From positions 62,001 through 126,000 of the forward strand of contig NZ_LGYH01000004.1 of NCBI RefSeq assembly GCF_001308015.1: DNA of 64,000 nucleotides. The letters are read 5' to 3'. Of the stretch, positions 30,009 through 37,971 are shown one piece after another (within the stretch, counting starts at the first letter, position 1; every line of letters starts with the position of its first letter). The notes below the pieces were generated by a model that was not told the origin of the DNA, ran no database searches, and saw only the letters and a program-made list of their open reading frames with translations. The position numbers and the translations under genes were made by a program. Origin of the DNA: Neisseria sp. 83E34. GTDB lineage: Bacteria; Pseudomonadota; Gammaproteobacteria; Burkholderiales; Neisseriaceae.

Positions 30009-31796
30009 TTGGAAAAGAATCCTTTAAAAACAATGACAATTGTAGCAGTAGCCGTGGCTCTGGCTATTAGTTTCTGGTATAGCTCAGCTTGGCTGCAGCT
30101 CTGTTATGGGCTGGCTTTATTTTTATTTGGCATGCAGAGCATTGAAGAAGGCTTGCATAATGCGGCGGGAGGCATGCTGGAGCGATTGATGACCAGAAGT
30201 ACAGCTACTCCGTTAAGAAGTATGCTCTTCGGTATGGGAGCAACATTTGTTTTACAATCAAGCACATTGGTTTCTTTGTTAACCATGGCATTTCTTAGTG
30301 CAGGCTTGATTTCTTTAGTAGGGGGTATTGCGGTTATTTTAGGAACCAACTTGGGTGCAACCAGTGGTATTTGGCTGTTGGCTTTGGCAGGACAAAGTAT
30401 CAGCTTAAGTCCTGCTGCTGTGCCTATGTTGGTGTTTGGTATTTTAGCCGGATTCTTTAAAGGAAAAATGAAAGGATTCGGCAGAGTTTTGGTGGGCATC
30501 TCGCTTATATTTCTAGGAATTGATGCCATTAAAGGTGGCTTTCAGAGTGTAGGGAGTGCTTTTGATTTTGCTTCGGTTCAAGTTCAAGGCGCTGCCGAAG
30601 TGGCTATTTTCAGCTTTATCGGTTTGTTATTGACCATTGTGTTGCAATCCACCCATGCTACGCTGATTCTTACGCTTGCGGCTTTGGCCGGCGGGCAAAT
30701 CAGTTTGGCGCAGGCTTTTGCTATCGCGATAGGCTCTAATGTAGGAACCAGTGTTTCTACGGCTTTTGTTGGTATGTTGGGCAGTGACCGTGGAGGGCAA
30801 CGGCTGGCTATGGCACATTTGCTGTTTAACGTTGTAACTGCGCTTTTGTCTTTGTTGTTGTGGATTCCGATTACATCTGCGGTTCAAGCAGTAGGTGTTT
30901 GGTTAGGGATGAGCGATTTGCTTCAGTTGGCATTCTTCCATACGATATTTAATGTGTTGGGTTTGGTTGTATTTTGGAATTTTCAAAACCAATTGGCAGA
31001 CGAACTATTGCGCCGTTTGCCCGATGCCGTACAAACAGGTTTGCAGGAGCCGAAAAGAGAAAAAAAACGCCATGCCTTATATCTGAATGAAAATATGCTG
31101 CGTTCGGGTGATACCGCCTTGCGTGCCGTATGTAAAGAAATCGAACATCTAAATACATTGAGTTTGGAAGTGATCTGTCAGGCACTGTTCATTCCTGAAC
31201 AAGCGCTTTATGAGGATACGTTATCGTCGGAACTGAGCCTGCCTGAAAAAGTGCAGAAAATTGATGTTCAAACGCTTTACCAAGACCGGATCAAGCCGTT
31301 GTATGGGGAGTTGGTGGAATTTACCAGTAAAACCGATATTGACGAGCGTGATGATAAACAGAAATTGTTGATGAATGCGCATATGGCGGCGATGCAAATG
31401 GTGGAGATCGTTAAAGGTTGCAAACACCTTCAAAAAAATATGCAGCATTATTTGCAACAGCCACAATCTCCTGTGTACAAAGAATATTTGGATTTGCGTG
31501 CGCATTTATTTGATACGCTGAAATATTTTTACCGAACATCTTTATCGGAAGCCGATTCGCCAGAGCGTACCGATAATATTGCAATATTAGCGCAGCATGT
31601 TGAAATACTGGATACTGTTTTCCGAACCGGAATATTGGAAAAATTGCGCGCAGGAAAAATTGACAGTTGGCAGACAACCTCTTTAATGAATGACATCAAT
31701 TACGCCAAGCGCATTGGCTTGGGATTTTTGGATATTCTGAGGGAGGAAAAAGAGCTGATGATGCACCCTACCGAAAAGGAGCAAGAAGCTGCATAG
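30009..31796 (+). CDS. Na/Pi cotransporter family protein with PhoU-like tail
   Basis: The 595-residue membrane protein has two inverted Na/Pi-cotransporter repeats, each with the QSS/QST motif (FVLQSSTLVSLLTMAFLSAG and IVLQSTHATLILTLAALAGG). A C-terminal cytoplasmic helical region (about 350-580) resembles PhoU. It should import phosphate with sodium, or export it, as proposed for some YjbB-like relatives. The first plausible start is TTG at 30009 behind GGAAG; an ATG nine codons later would remove only polar residues. It stands alone, closed by a DUS hairpin. Confidence 0.88.
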   Translation: MEKNPLKTMTIVAVAVALAISFWYSSAWLQLCYGLALFLFGMQSIEEGLHNAAGGMLERLMTRSTATPLRSMLFGMGATFVLQSSTLVSLLTMAFLSAGLISLVGGIAVILGTNLGATSGIWLLALAGQSISLSPAAVPMLVFGILAGFFKGKMKGFGRVLVGISLIFLGIDAIKGGFQSVGSAFDFASVQVQGAAEVAIFSFIGLLLTIVLQSTHATLILTLAALAGGQISLAQAFAIAIGSNVGTSVSTAFVGMLGSDRGGQRLAMAHLLFNVVTALLSLLLWIPITSAVQAVGVWLGMSDLLQLAFFHTIFNVLGLVVFWNFQNQLADELLRRLPDAVQTGLQEPKREKKRHALYLNENMLRSGDTALRAVCKEIEHLNTLSLEVICQALFIPEQALYEDTLSSELSLPEKVQKIDVQTLYQDRIKPLYGELVEFTSKTDIDERDDKQKLLMNAHMAAMQMVEIVKGCKHLQKNMQHYLQQPQSPVYKEYLDLRAHLFDTLKYFYRTSLSEADSPERTDNIAILAQHVEILDTVFRTGILEKLRAGKIDSWQTTSLMNDINYAKRIGLGFLDILREEKELMMHPTEKEQEAA

Positions 31797-31808: not shown

Positions 31809-31844
31809 AATGCCTGTCTGAAAGTTGCTTTTCAGACAGGCATT
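31809..31844. terminator. DUS inverted-pair terminator
   Basis: DUS copies at 31811-31822 and 31831-31842 form a hairpin 14 bases after the phosphate transporter gene. Confidence 0.8.
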
Positions 31845-31973: not shown

Positions 31974-33893
31974 TTACGTTAATCTTGAAAACCTGCGATT
32001 ACTATAGGGAAAATCTACACCATACACAAACCAAATCAATAAGGCATATAAAAAAGCCTGAATCCATAAGCTTGTACTTAAATTTCCTGCCTTCAAAGGA
32101 ATAGAAGGGATACAAGTCATCACCATTCCAAGCAAAATTGAAGCAATTGCCAGCCATTGGTAAGCGCGCATACCCATAAAGTAGGGGGTTTGCGGTTCGC
32201 CGCGAAGTGATTCTTCTACAAACCGGAAAATGCCGCTGAGAATGAAATATATGCCTGTTACGAATGATGCGGGCATTTCCAGTGTATACAATCGCCACAA
32301 AAGAAAGAAACTGAGAAAGTTTGCCGCCATTGAATAAAACTGTGTGGGATAAAGGTTTTGTCCGCATAAACCGGCCAATTTGTTGACTCGGGATTTGGGG
32401 TGTGTGAACCGTAAACCCTGTACCGTGTCGGTGGGTTTGCCATGGCAGCAGCCTTGAACCAAGCAGCGGCATCTGCCGAAAAACTGGATAGGGCATGCAG
32501 CTAGAGCTGCCGCCGCTAATAGTGACCAGATATCTGCTCCGAACAGCCCTGCCGTAAATACTGCAGTCAAAATGCCGATAACGCTGCCATAGTAACCAAA
32601 GGGGCGCAATAAGGCGGCGGAACCTTCTACCCATTGCGCCCACAATCCGGCACCGATAAAGCCGGAAAAGCCTATCAGATAAACGGCCCACAGGTTGCCG
32701 GGCAATAGATAAGCCATGATTAAAAAACCGAAAAATCCGCCCAAAGCCGCATAAAATCCGTGATTAATCAGGCGCACTTTGCCGAATTGCCATTCACGCC
32801 AGGAATTTGCAATCCGTTCGCAGAAATGCAATAAGCCCATATAAACCGACTTCCTATATCTGATCAGGCAATACACCAAAACAGCAGAAGCGGCATCTGC
32901 AAGGGTATGGTTGTGGGTGGTCAGGCAGCTTAAGATGACCAGCCATGCTGCTGCTACAAGATAGCGGCGGTATGGTACAGGTGTGCCGGCGAAGTAATGC
33001 GCGGCAATGAGTGCCCAAAAAATATGGAAAGACGGAAATGAAGCCATGGGCGAATCGTATTGACGCCCCCATTCAATGATATTGCTGAAAAGCGAATCGG
33101 GCAGCGTTTGGTAATCTATTGCTGCCGGAACAACCAGATAGCTATAAAAGATCAGTAACATTCCCCAAAAAGCGTCACTCATCCATGCCCGCAAACGTTG
33201 GTTGCTGTCGATAACAAACGGAACGGCTATGGTGAGCGGGTAAGCCAACAGATAAAACAATACGGTAAACGGCAAAATCGGCACATAAGCATCGGCCGCG
33301 GTGTTGCTGTAAAACATATCTGAAGGTAAACCTAGCCAAACAAATATTTCGTAGCCCAACAGCCATGGCACAAACACCAGCAAGGCGGCCCGTGTTTTTT
33401 CAGACAGGCCTGGTTTGCGCACATTAGGGGGAGGAAGATCCAGCCATGTTTTGTGCAACAAAGGCTTGGCACCGAATTGCCGTTCGATAATTTCACGCTC
33501 AAAGCCGTATATGTAAGCCACAATCATCAGTGCAAATAGCGGTGTAACCAGCCACATGCCGGCAGACGAACCGTTCAGCCATGACCAACCCAAACACAGC
33601 AAGACCGCGCCTGCGTAAATCGGATGCCGGCAAACGCGGTAAGCGCCTGAAAATACATATTCCTCAGGAGGAAACGCATTCATCGGCAAACCTTTGCCTG
33701 TGTGCCATAAACCGATCATCGCCCATAACATCAAAGCTATTCCGGCCGCCGCGATCAATCCGCCCGGCCATTGTGCAACGGGTAAAGGTAGTGTAACCGC
33801 ATGATCGGCGTATATTGCCCATTGCCACAGTAATGCTGGTAGAAGCAGGCAAAACACGGCAGCATAGAGTATTTTTTGCAAAATTAAAGGCAT
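31974..33893 (-). CDS. Three-domain membrane protein: ICMT-, PAP2- and Lgt-like domains fused
   Basis: This 639-residue, almost wholly hydrophobic protein joins three lipid-enzyme modules. Residues about 1-150 carry SGAYRVCRHPIYAGAVLLCL, the pattern of isoprenylcysteine/phospholipid methyltransferases. Residues about 170-350 hold a PAP2/Aur1-like phosphotransferase core, with FPSFH (286-290) and HNHTLAD (327-333). Residues about 380-600 match Lgt, the prolipoprotein diacylglyceryl transferase, with GRCRCLVQGCCHGKP (473-487), YPTQFYS and GIFRFVEESLRGEP. The frame is unbroken, so this is a true fusion. I infer modification or transfer of a lipid head group or diacylglycerol unit; the substrate is unknown. 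The canonical lgt should lie elsewhere. The next gene upstream, 57 bases away, probably shares its transcript. Confidence 0.75.
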   Translation of the reverse strand: MPLILQKILYAAVFCLLLPALLWQWAIYADHAVTLPLPVAQWPGGLIAAAGIALMLWAMIGLWHTGKGLPMNAFPPEEYVFSGAYRVCRHPIYAGAVLLCLGWSWLNGSSAGMWLVTPLFALMIVAYIYGFEREIIERQFGAKPLLHKTWLDLPPPNVRKPGLSEKTRAALLVFVPWLLGYEIFVWLGLPSDMFYSNTAADAYVPILPFTVLFYLLAYPLTIAVPFVIDSNQRLRAWMSDAFWGMLLIFYSYLVVPAAIDYQTLPDSLFSNIIEWGRQYDSPMASFPSFHIFWALIAAHYFAGTPVPYRRYLVAAAWLVILSCLTTHNHTLADAASAVLVYCLIRYRKSVYMGLLHFCERIANSWREWQFGKVRLINHGFYAALGGFFGFLIMAYLLPGNLWAVYLIGFSGFIGAGLWAQWVEGSAALLRPFGYYGSVIGILTAVFTAGLFGADIWSLLAAAALAACPIQFFGRCRCLVQGCCHGKPTDTVQGLRFTHPKSRVNKLAGLCGQNLYPTQFYSMAANFLSFFLLWRLYTLEMPASFVTGIYFILSGIFRFVEESLRGEPQTPYFMGMRAYQWLAIASILLGMVMTCIPSIPLKAGNLSTSLWIQAFLYALLIWFVYGVDFPYSNRRFSRLT

Positions 33894-33950: not shown

Positions 33951-34739
33951 TTAAGAGCGCCACAATACTTTTTCATACAGCGCCCAACCTGTTTCAGCCG
34001 GTGCACCGGGTATAACGAGTTCGGCGCGGCTTTTCCACTTGGTTTCGCGTGTTTTCAAGAAATCTTTACCGAACACGCGGTTGAGCACCGGAAAACGCCG
34101 GGCCAGTGTCAGTAAAGGTTCGTCTTTGATCACAGCAGGTTCGTGAAAGTTTAAATGCAAGCTATGCTCAGGCAGTAACAAACTGTATTGATCCAAGATG
34201 AAATTTTGATAGCACTTGCCATCCAGATAAAGCAGTTTCAAAGGATTTGTGCCGCGCCATTCCAGCCATACCAGTGTATGGGAAGGAGAAAGGAAACGCC
34301 CCCAATACAATTCGTTTAAAGGCAGACGCCACGGCTCTAAAGTCAGCATTAGTGTTTCTGCGTAGCCAAGGCCTTGAAAATGTTGCCCATTCAGCAAACA
34401 GGAAAACCGGGCCTTGGGTGTGTGGCAATGCCAGCGGACATATTTATTTGTATCAGTAAAAGTGGCGGCGTTGAGTAAATCTACATCGTTAAGGGGTGCG
34501 TCCAGAGCTTGCCATTTAGCCGATACGGATAAGTTTGATTGCTGAAAAATACGGTGATTTTCACCAAGCTTTGCAGCTTTCAGACAGGCATCTTCATGCA
34601 AAACGTTATCCGAACTGTGAAGCATCACTGAAGAATACGGTAGGCGGACGCCCAGGAATGATAGTTCCGCAGCATACGCAATCATGGCATTGCCGTGTTG
34701 GTCGATGCCGTCGAAATAATGTTTGCGGAGGGTAAACAC
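33951..34739 (-). CDS. Hypothetical protein, weakly CrtC/lipocalin-like
   Basis: I cannot name this 262-residue protein with confidence. It is soluble and rich in Trp and aromatic residues, and contains KYVRWHCHTPKARFSCLLNG and GLGYAETLMLTLEPWRLPLN. This style recalls the beta-barrel carotenoid hydratase (CrtC/AttH) superfamily. GTG at 34739, seven bases after AGGA, is the best start. An ATG at 34820 would place the start inside the terminator hairpin of the neighbouring gene. It shares direction and closeness with the ICMT-PAP2-Lgt fusion, so a joint role on a lipid substrate is possible. One exact uptake sequence lies in the coding region. Confidence 0.6.
   Translation of the reverse strand: MFTLRKHYFDGIDQHGNAMIAYAAELSFLGVRLPYSSVMLHSSDNVLHEDACLKAAKLGENHRIFQQSNLSVSAKWQALDAPLNDVDLLNAATFTDTNKYVRWHCHTPKARFSCLLNGQHFQGLGYAETLMLTLEPWRLPLNELYWGRFLSPSHTLVWLEWRGTNPLKLLYLDGKCYQNFILDQYSLLLPEHSLHLNFHEPAVIKDEPLLTLARRFPVLNRVFGKDFLKTRETKWKSRAELVIPGAPAETGWALYEKVLWRS
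34579..34590 (-). repeat. Uptake sequence inside a coding region
   Basis: Exact TGCCTGTCTGAA in the coding strand, encoding part of EDACLKAAK. Confidence 0.8.
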
Positions 34740-35437: not shown

Positions 35438-36088
35438 TTAGTCGGGCTGCGGCACTTTATGCTGCACCGCATACACCGCAGCTTGTACGCGGCTGCTTAA
35501 TTCCAGCTTGCGCAAAATATTCTGCACGTGCACTTTAATGGTGGACTCGGCTAAATCGAGGCGGCGGGCGATGATTTTGTTGCTGTGGCCGGCAGCCAGA
35601 TAACCGAGGATTTCCAGCTCACGCGGGGTCAGGCCGGCGAGTTGGTTGTTTTTAGGCGCCGGTGTCGGTGAAATGAGCGATTGAACCAGGCGGGCGGTCA
35701 TTTCGGGTGAGAACACATTGTCGCCGTCAACGGCTTTGCGGATGGAATCAAGCAGAAAATCGGCATTGATGTTTTTCAACAGAAAGCCGCGAGCGCCCAA
35801 ACGCATGCATTCGGTGAGATCCTCGCTGTCTTCCGATACGGTAAGCATCACCACGGTTTGCTCGGGGTTGGCATTAAGGATTTGCTCCAATGCTTCCCGC
35901 CCGTTCATCACCGGCATATCCAAATCCAGCAATACGATGTCGGGGCGTAGCTGCTCCGTGATTTTTACGCCGGCCAAGCCGTCTTCAGCTTCGCCGACAA
36001 CATTGAAGTCTTCTTGGCGGGAAAGCAGGGCTTTAATGCCGCTGCGGAAAAGTGTATGGTCGTCGATCAGTACGATATTGATGCTCAT
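35438..36088 (-). CDS. narL: NarL/FixJ-type response regulator
   Basis: The 216-residue protein has a receiver domain with the phosphoacceptor Asp in DIVLLDLDMPVMNG (about residue 55). A LuxR-type helix-turn-helix follows (LTPRELEILGYLAAGHSNKI and AESTIKVHVQNILRK). It is the partner of the sensor whose gene overlaps its start by four bases. Family members NarL/NarP control genes for nitrate, nitrite or nitric oxide respiration. Neisseria homologues are usually called NarP, and the symbol here is therefore provisional. Its target genes cannot be read from this window, although molybdopterin genes stand next door. Confidence 0.85.
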   Translation of the reverse strand: MSINIVLIDDHTLFRSGIKALLSRQEDFNVVGEAEDGLAGVKITEQLRPDIVLLDLDMPVMNGREALEQILNANPEQTVVMLTVSEDSEDLTECMRLGARGFLLKNINADFLLDSIRKAVDGDNVFSPEMTARLVQSLISPTPAPKNNQLAGLTPRELEILGYLAAGHSNKIIARRLDLAESTIKVHVQNILRKLELSSRVQAAVYAVQHKVPQPD

Positions 36089-37971
36089 GTGGCTTCTCTT
36101 TTATTCTCATGTAAAGTCAATGTGATGGTGGTGCCCTGGTCTGGTACGGACGCTATGTTTAGATCCGCATGAATTCTGCGCGCCCGCTCGTGCATAATGC
36201 CGATACCGACATGGTTGCTGCCCATAGCTTTCAGCCTTTCCGGGCTGAATCCGATGCCGTTATCATGGATGCTCAGAACGAAATCTTGGTTGTTTTGTAG
36301 GGTTATTTCAACGCTGTCTGCACGGGCGTGTTTGCGGATGTTGGACAAGCTTTCCTGCAAAATGAAGATTACTTGCAGCTGCTGCTCCGGGCTGAGCGGC
36401 AAACCATGCCCTTGCCAGGTAACCCGAGCCGGAATATGGGTTTGCTGGGTAAACCGCTTCGCCAGGGTTTCAACTGCTTCGGTAAAGTCTTTTCTGCTGA
36501 CTTTTGTGCGGAAGTTTAGCAGAAGTTCGCGCACATCGTCATAGCATTCTTGCACGCCTTCTTTGATGAAATTCATATTTTCCTGAACCTGCTCCTGCTG
36601 GCCGGTTTGCATGGCGTTTTCAAGCATTTGTACTTGCAGGTTTAGAAAAGTCAGAGTTTGTGCAATGCTGTCGTGCAGGCCTTGGGCCAACAGATTGCGC
36701 TCCTGTAAAACGGCAAGCTGGCGGTTTTCTTCTATGAGCCGGATATTGGCTATGGCCAAGCCGAGCTGGTCGCATAAAGTATTCAATAAATCGGTTTCTG
36801 CGGGTTCTAATGTGGTTTCTTCTTTGAAGTAGAGCGTAAAAATGCCGATATCCTGCTCTTTATGGCGCACATGAAACACAGCCACATCTTTGAAACCGAC
36901 TTTTTCACAAAGGTTGGCTTGAGCCGGTGGCTCTTTGTGGAAAAAATGCACTATTTGCTCACCGGCCCGGCTGGCTGCGTGGCCGCAAAAGCAAGCTTCC
37001 AAACGCTCGCACTGTTCGGCAGTTTGCAGATTTTCAGGCAGGCCTTTACTGGCTGCCAAGTCCATGCGGTTTCGTGTGAAATCCAGCAGGCGAACGCTGC
37101 CGGCGGACGCTGATGTTTGCGGCAGCACATGGTTGAGGAAATCTTGTGCGGCTTCTGTGGACGCATGGGTTTGGTGGAGTTGGCGGGTGGTTTGATAGAG
37201 TGTTTCCAGCTCATGGTTTTTGCGGGCAAGGTCGTGCGTTTTGCACTGAACTTCCTGCTCAAGATTGTTGTAAAGCTTTTGCAGATGAGCACCCATTTGA
37301 TTGAAGCCGTCGGCAAGTTGGGCAAATTCGGCCACGCTGCCCAGCGCCACTTTTTTACCGAACCGTCCGGCTCGAATGGCTTCCACGCCCAACCGCAAAT
37401 GGTTAATCGGATGGATAACCCAAGCGTAGAGTAAAACCATCATCACCGCCGCGCCAATCAACACCATAATCATCAGGCCTGTCTGAAAAAGCCGTAGCCA
37501 TTCGGTGTCGCGGGCGTTTTCAAGTTCGGTTAGATGAACCAGCCGGCTGATTTCTTTAACGAAGTTTTGTAAAGTTTCAGCCGAGGCAGGTTGCTGCCCG
37601 GTTGCGGCGGCAAGCAGCATGGGGCGGGTCAGCTTTTGCCAGTGATGCACCACTTTTTCCATTTGCTCGTGAATCTCTTCTGATTCGGGTAAAAAAAGCG
37701 GGCGTTTCGGGTCTCCGTTTTGCAGGTTGGTAAGGATGCGGTCAAATTCTTGAATGTCAGGCTGAATAGTTTGCGTATCGGCACTTTTTGCGAGCTTGAA
37801 AGCCATCAGATAAGTACGCATACGTAGGCTGCCTGCATCGTTGATGGCTGCCCCCGCCCCTTCCATGCGCCAAGACAAAACAAGCGTAAAAGCAATGGAT
37901 ACCAAGGCTGCCGTTACGCCAAACGCGGTCAGCAGTTTCAAACGGGACGAAAGGCTGAGGTGGCTGTTCAT
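36085..37971 (-). CDS. narX: NarX/NarQ-type sensor histidine kinase
   Basis: The 628-residue kinase has two membrane helices (about 14-34 and 165-188) around a periplasmic four-helix nitrate-sensor-like domain. HAMP follows (about 190-240), then a GAF-like region with clustered cysteines (CERLEACFCGHAA), a HisKA_3 domain (GLHDSIAQTLTFLNLQVQML, His in HDS) and an ATPase domain (DNGIGFSPERLKA, HVGIGIMHERA). This is the NarX/NarQ order. Neisseria forms are often named NarQ. It is transcribed before its regulator with a four-base overlap. The signal may be nitrate, nitrite or redox state. Confidence 0.85.
   Translation of the reverse strand: MNSHLSLSSRLKLLTAFGVTAALVSIAFTLVLSWRMEGAGAAINDAGSLRMRTYLMAFKLAKSADTQTIQPDIQEFDRILTNLQNGDPKRPLFLPESEEIHEQMEKVVHHWQKLTRPMLLAAATGQQPASAETLQNFVKEISRLVHLTELENARDTEWLRLFQTGLMIMVLIGAAVMMVLLYAWVIHPINHLRLGVEAIRAGRFGKKVALGSVAEFAQLADGFNQMGAHLQKLYNNLEQEVQCKTHDLARKNHELETLYQTTRQLHQTHASTEAAQDFLNHVLPQTSASAGSVRLLDFTRNRMDLAASKGLPENLQTAEQCERLEACFCGHAASRAGEQIVHFFHKEPPAQANLCEKVGFKDVAVFHVRHKEQDIGIFTLYFKEETTLEPAETDLLNTLCDQLGLAIANIRLIEENRQLAVLQERNLLAQGLHDSIAQTLTFLNLQVQMLENAMQTGQQEQVQENMNFIKEGVQECYDDVRELLLNFRTKVSRKDFTEAVETLAKRFTQQTHIPARVTWQGHGLPLSPEQQLQVIFILQESLSNIRKHARADSVEITLQNNQDFVLSIHDNGIGFSPERLKAMGSNHVGIGIMHERARRIHADLNIASVPDQGTTITLTLHENKREAT

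Follow-up and report, generated by a model that had tools for sequence, protein, structure and literature searches.

A three-domain PEMT-PAP2_3-Lgt-like fusion protein and its AttH/CghA-type partner in Neisseria: a possible two-gene lipid-tailoring system

What might a Neisseria cell with an ordinary lgt gene do with a second, Lgt-like domain that is joined to phosphotransferase-type and methyltransferase-type domains in one polypeptide? The question is raised by gene B (31974..33893, minus strand) in a 64,000-nucleotide stretch of the genome of Neisseria sp. 83E34, the whole of which is called the window below. The first-pass annotation described B as one unbroken 639-residue frame, and the ORF check on the minus strand bears this out, with an ATG start and zero internal stops. 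It covered B alone and missed the co-occurring gene next to it, gene A (33951..34739, minus strand), which codes for a 262-aa protein assigned to the AttH/CghA type by fold prediction.

B is a three-domain fusion with the order PEMT, PAP2_3, LGT, as read from its ORF, Pfam and homologue comparison. The first domain (residues 42-142; 33468..33770, minus strand) matches the PEMT family (PF04191) at 34.6 bits against a cut-off of 25, and all four B proteins scanned exceed that cut-off (34.6, 28.0, 43.9 and 30.6 bits). The same region was first called ICMT-like. The ICMT match in the window protein reaches 13.8 bits, below its cut-off of 24, and PEMT-type is therefore the better name on profile scores. 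The middle domain (residues 212-344; 32862..33260, minus strand) is absent from the matches of a whole-protein Pfam scan of window B. When the middle region is scanned alone, the Aur1-type family PAP2_3 (PF14378) passes its cut-off of 27 bits in two of the four B proteins scanned, L008 (32.6) and L007 (28.4), while the window protein (24.4) and L030 (25.0) fall below it. The Lgt-like region (residues 357-639; 31977..32825, minus strand) has a Pfam match to LGT (PF01790) over residues 431-594 at 73.7 bits, against a gathering score of 24.9, and a profile-profile comparison with genuine Lgt gives a probability of 92.8 and an E-value of 4.1e-7. The three lipid-enzyme signatures originally noticed thus hold, with PEMT-type preferred to ICMT-like as the label of the methyltransferase part. 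The structure prediction for B has a pLDDT of 48, so its folds are read from sequence profiles. A Foldseek search with that model returned zero matches at E <= 0.001 (best E 0.35), and a weak match to steroid 5-alpha-reductase (E 2.8) was given no use. PDB sequence searches with B and with its LGT part returned no match, and hydropathy gave no clear topology.

Putative catalytic residues of each domain are invariant in all six complete B proteins, among them that of the window. The PEMT part keeps HPIY at positions 90-93 and E132. It shares the invariant HPxY with the PEMT-type membrane methyltransferases, which are related to ICMT, but differs from them in being fused to other domains and in the residue preceding HP, which is R, K or S, the usual basic residue being Ser in G899. 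The PAP2 part keeps H290, H329 and D333 in a P-[SA]-F-H and H-x3-D pattern; as in the PAP2_3/Aur1 family, these three are presumably catalytic. The pattern is shared with Aur1 and bacterial inositol phosphorylceramide synthase (PF14378), from which the B domain differs by its place in a fusion and by the sub-threshold PAP2_3 scores of the window protein and L030. A bacterial Aur1 homologue in Bacteroides makes phosphoinositol dihydroceramide, according to passages of PMC9246714. In the LGT part R474, R476, C477, C482, C483, H484, R557, E561 and R564 are invariant, and S288, T326, N328, C475 and Q518 of B differ in G899. Relatives of the middle domain were also met elsewhere in the order, in L021 (760-2190, minus strand) and L026 (1393-2820, plus strand); the C-terminal part of these proteins resembles, as we take it from motifs, a dual-specificity phosphatase.

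B is present in six genomes besides the window's, one copy (G1276) being truncated at the end of a contig. The other five are complete, have the same layout and are 95, 84, 65, 60 and 38% identical to window B; the nearest named relative, from Neisseria wadsworthii 9715, is 95% identical over all 639 residues. The searches were made within the phylum, in family, order, class and phylum samples that overlap. B occurs in 5 of 83 family genomes, the window's own included, and in 3 of 12 genera. In the order draw a full-length match is found in one of 300 genomes, the window's own (77 of the 78 matching genomes gave single-domain matches only), and an even draw across the phylum likewise yields just the window's own genome among 398. 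The most distant complete copy, in G899, was found via gene A: it belongs to the same class but another order, and its B has 651 residues, 38% identical over the full length. B is found in one of 246 genomes of G899's order and in 2 of 107 of its family (G899 and G1276). A query with the LGT part alone matched four of the 274 class genomes at E <= 1e-11: two of the matches are B, and those in G744 and G1000 are short Lgt frames without a fusion. Plasmid searches gave nothing except one weak Lgt match in Thermomicrobium, and searches of viral contigs gave no match. Such a rare and scattered distribution fits horizontal transfer or repeated loss.

The full-length frame is conserved in four genera. 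Between the window and its two closest homologues dN/dS is 0.155 and 0.050 in the PEMT part, 0.148 and 0.115 in the PAP2 part, and 0.061 and 0.044 in the LGT part, which is the lowest of the three in both pairs; dS in the second pair is 1.3-1.9, near saturation, and L007 and L008 were left out because their dS was saturated or nearly so. These values indicate strong purifying selection on each domain and, by sequence criteria, a functional protein. An ORF artefact was considered and rejected on the strength of the five complete homologues of the same layout and the low dN/dS. That the fusion is a product of sequencing or assembly, or a chance joining with no function, has a negligible probability, given a full-length frame that is conserved in four genera under strong purifying selection.

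The separate, normal lgt gene whose presence the first-pass annotation had set as a check is there: the window genome carries a canonical lgt apart from B (262 bits, G000:C32:217998-218795), and one of 257-270 bits is found in all seven B-carrying genomes, so the idea that B is the sole lgt of the cell was rejected. G899 and G1276 each encode one further Lgt-family protein, their third, which is not fused (106 and 112 bits; L063 1450-2340 and L062 839-1693, both minus strand); it carries an HR(V/I)GCFLAGCC motif, and its gene adjoins a putative ABC-transporter ATPase gene.

B resembles Lgt (PF01790) in its family match and in retaining the equivalents of E. coli G142, R143, G154, R239, E243 and R246; R474, R557 and R564 of B correspond to R143, R239 and R246 in all six complete proteins. 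Unlike Lgt, it is fused to two other enzyme domains, with a canonical lgt elsewhere in the genome, and it reads H, Y, R, C and C at E. coli Y26, H103, G145, N146 and E151 in the four B rows aligned (Y26H, H103Y, G145R, N146C and E151C, with Y235S as well, as aligned). That alignment includes four of the six complete B proteins (L005 and L006 are absent), and frames of at least 420 aa were dropped (the L017 match). All five residues are present in each of 15 distinct rows of ordinary Lgt from Pseudomonadota, while a Thermomicrobium Lgt reads H, Y, G, C and D; G145R is confined to B among the Lgt rows examined. Passages of PMC13251419 state that E. coli Lgt function needs Y26, H103, R143, N146, G154 and R239, and passages of PMC4728403 that changes of G145 inactivate it. 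For E151 the two conflict, an inactive change being reported in PMC4728403 and a functional E151A in PMC13251419, and no weight is therefore put on E151C. PMC13251419 also places Y26H, H103Y and N146C in other Lgt relatives, so these changes alone do not rule out lipoprotein modification by B.

The NCBIfam Lgt equivalog cut-offs are missed by B (65.1 against 334; 27.8 against 118.9). In a tree of the Lgt rows, from which second copies of the E. coli and Thermomicrobium sequences in the alignment had been removed, the B clade sits on a branch of 6.2 changes per column with long-branch warnings, owing to which the tree is used solely for the statement that B is divergent. An ordinary recent lgt duplicate was rejected as the origin of the LGT domain because of the missed cut-offs, the changed residues and the divergent tree position. 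The Lgt-like domain is accordingly placed on a divergent branch near the recognised divergent part of the Lgt family. Passages of PMC13251419 and PMC4728403 link R143 and R239 with the phospholipid donor, and link H103, together with the head and arm regions, with the acceptor protein. Donor arginines kept beside acceptor-side residues lost is, we infer, what would be expected had the acceptor changed. The substrates of characterised Lgt enzymes are lipoproteins (PMC13251419); the domain in B, we think, serves a substrate of another kind than ordinary lipoproteins.

Gene A is on the same strand as B, 57 bases upstream of it. Its GTG start was picked by comparison with relatives, the mechanical frame beginning further upstream; under the start choices made here, the two genes overlap in G003, G899 and G1276. 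The family genomes that carry A are the same five that carry B (5 of 83), a coincidence expected by chance once in 29 million or, with species collapsed to genera, 1 in 220, the fairer figure since species share ancestry. A was present in all six B carriers searched and in a seventh, G1276, where it lies on one contig with B and is 30% identical to the window's A, so that A accompanies B in 7 of 7. Two overlapping class draws found A in 2 of 274 genomes with a first profile and in 2 of 203 with an improved profile, in both cases the window's own genome and G899, both of which carry B; no case of A without B was met among the genomes searched for A. G065 retains both genes, on separate contigs and with about 13.6 kb or more between them. 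This co-occurrence, kept even where the genes are unlinked, argues more strongly than any other finding for a shared function, and A and B very probably form a functional unit.

What A contributes is suggested by its predicted fold. Pfam scans of five members of A gave zero families at E <= 10, a PDB sequence search gave no match at E <= 10, and no signal peptide is evident by eye at the N-terminus. The AlphaFold model is mostly beta (pLDDT 79, pTM 0.75), and with it Foldseek finds 22 PDB chains at E <= 0.001, all from the AttH/CrtC/CghA group. They include CghA, Fsa2, AttH NE1406 and kievitone hydratase (probability 1.00, E 1.5e-8 to 2.2e-6), as well as Phm7 and other [4+2] pericyclases; TM values of 0.43-0.58 on A and identities of 10-13% make this a fold-level likeness only. 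A is thus predicted to have a lipocalin-like fold with a duplication, of the AttH/CrtC/CghA group, and may be a carrier or an enzyme. It shares its predicted fold with that group (NE1406, CrtC, Fsa2, Phm7 pericyclases, kievitone hydratase), but is shorter (262 aa against 320-381), has no Pfam family and is paired with a membrane enzyme. Trp103, Tyr126 and Glu128 are invariant, the Tyr-x-Glu motif being present in all seven A rows, of which L005 begins inside the gene. For NE1406 passages of PMC2954199 propose a role in lipid metabolism and note a remote similarity to the CrtC family.

The 12-mer TGCCTGTCTGAA occurs in 63 copies in the 64-kb window and in none of the shuffles; we take its letters to be those of wadDUS. 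Its sites often form close inverted pairs between genes. The wadDUS is the uptake-sequence dialect of Neisseria wadsworthii described by Frye et al. 2013 (passages of PMC3630211). A repeat scan finds a perfect inverted pair of such uptake-sequence-like 12-mers downstream of B (31809..31844), which is not flagged as a terminator, and a second one, built of that 12-mer too, in the stretch that separates gene A from an NlpC/P60 gene (34812..34866), terminator-like on the plus strand only; none was found in the gap between A and B. Paired uptake sequences can serve as terminators in Neisseria. A scan found no promoter-like site directly before A, and the region shows no excess over shuffles of terminator-like (8 against 5.5) or promoter-like sites (3 against 5.8), so an A-B transcription unit is not established. 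A Na+/Pi-cotransporter family gene (30009-31796, plus strand) is convergent with B across the downstream inverted pair. On the other side, gene A and the NlpC/P60 gene are preceded by the genes of a LuxR-type response regulator and of a PilJ/HAMP/GAF/HisKA_3 histidine kinase, which overlap by four bases (35438-37971, minus strand). The neighbours of A and B are common to the three carriers of the window's genus and different in G065 and G899, and give no hint of a pathway; Rfam has no match in the window.

From the domain matches, the invariant residues and the pairing of A with B we infer a system in which the two would act together at the inner membrane to tailor a lipid, a tentative reading that is quite possibly right. 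The Lgt-like domain would bind a phospholipid such as phosphatidylglycerol through R474 and R557 and transfer the diacylglyceryl group from it to an acceptor other than the ordinary lipobox cysteine. By an Aur1-like His/His-Asp mechanism the PAP2_3 domain would remove or transfer the phosphate head group of that product or of its by-product; the PEMT-type domain would methylate the product with S-adenosylmethionine as donor, and A would hold and present, or chemically finish, the hydrophobic substrate. This particular order of steps is rather unlikely to be exact. Whether the outcome is a lipid or small molecule, rather than lipoprotein modification, appears evenly poised. Against a lipid-tailoring system stand the PAP2_3 score of the window protein, which is under the Pfam threshold, the occurrence of Y26H, H103Y and N146C in other Lgts, and the very different chemistry done by members of the AttH/CghA fold group.

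The nearest competing explanation keeps lipoproteins as the substrate. B would be a specialised second Lgt for few lipoproteins, with the PAP2_3 and PEMT domains clearing the glycerol phosphate by-product or trimming the protein. The LGT score far over the Pfam cut-off and the retained equivalents of G142, R143, G154, R239, E243 and R246 agree with this, as do passages of PMC13251419 that count two lgt copies in about 1,300 genomes and describe a second mycobacterial Lgt with Y26H and N146C. It is nevertheless unlikely: Y26, H103, G145 and N146, kept in the 15 ordinary rows, are changed in B, the equivalog cut-offs are missed by far, and the partner A has the predicted fold of proteins with hydrophobic substrates. 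Several residues that E. coli Lgt requires are lost and the B branch is very long, long-branch warnings included; this could instead mean that the LGT domain is a non-catalytic, lipid-binding scaffold and that B is mainly a head-group phosphatase or transferase with a methyltransferase. This is improbable for a domain that is better conserved than the whole of B (48% against 38% identity to G899), has the lowest dN/dS in both close pairs and keeps its arginine pair.

An isoprenoid-lipid hybrid has also been weighed, in which A, acting like a carotenoid 1,2-hydratase, would attack a double bond by acid catalysis, PAP2_3 would remove a prenyl phosphate, PEMT would methylate the new hydroxyl and LGT would add diacylglycerol. 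It draws on the match of A to AttH NE1406, profile-related to the CrtC family (passages of PMC2954199), and on the Tyr-x-Glu found in all seven A rows where CrtC has Tyr266-x-Asp268; CrtC hydratases require His239, Trp241, Tyr266 and Asp268 (passages of PMC4717167). However, A has Glu in place of Asp, in a correspondence that is drawn from the motif and not from a tested alignment, and its rows show no invariant upstream His at the spacing of CrtC His239, the invariant H154 lying downstream; nor were isoprenoid genes recognised beside A or B in the regions read. We consider such a hybrid quite improbable.

The lipid-tailoring reading has a bolder form, which is possible though doubtful: an Lgt-family enzyme, joined in one polypeptide to a head-group phosphotransferase and a methyltransferase and needing a dedicated lipocalin-like carrier or cyclase, would transfer diacylglyceryl to a non-protein acceptor and so make an undescribed membrane lipid. 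In the open-licence PMC literature no description of such a fusion or of the A-B pair was found among the matches listed, and in passages of the lipocone paper Lgt and PAP2 are mentioned in separate contexts. The pathway of head-group or diacylglycerol transfer suggested by the first-pass annotation as undescribed is plausible, and the same matches contain no description of it. A conserved fusion that retains the donor-binding arginines of Lgt beside a normal lgt gene would offer a handle on other uses of the Lgt fold, and the strict pairing of A with B makes this a small, testable two-gene system.
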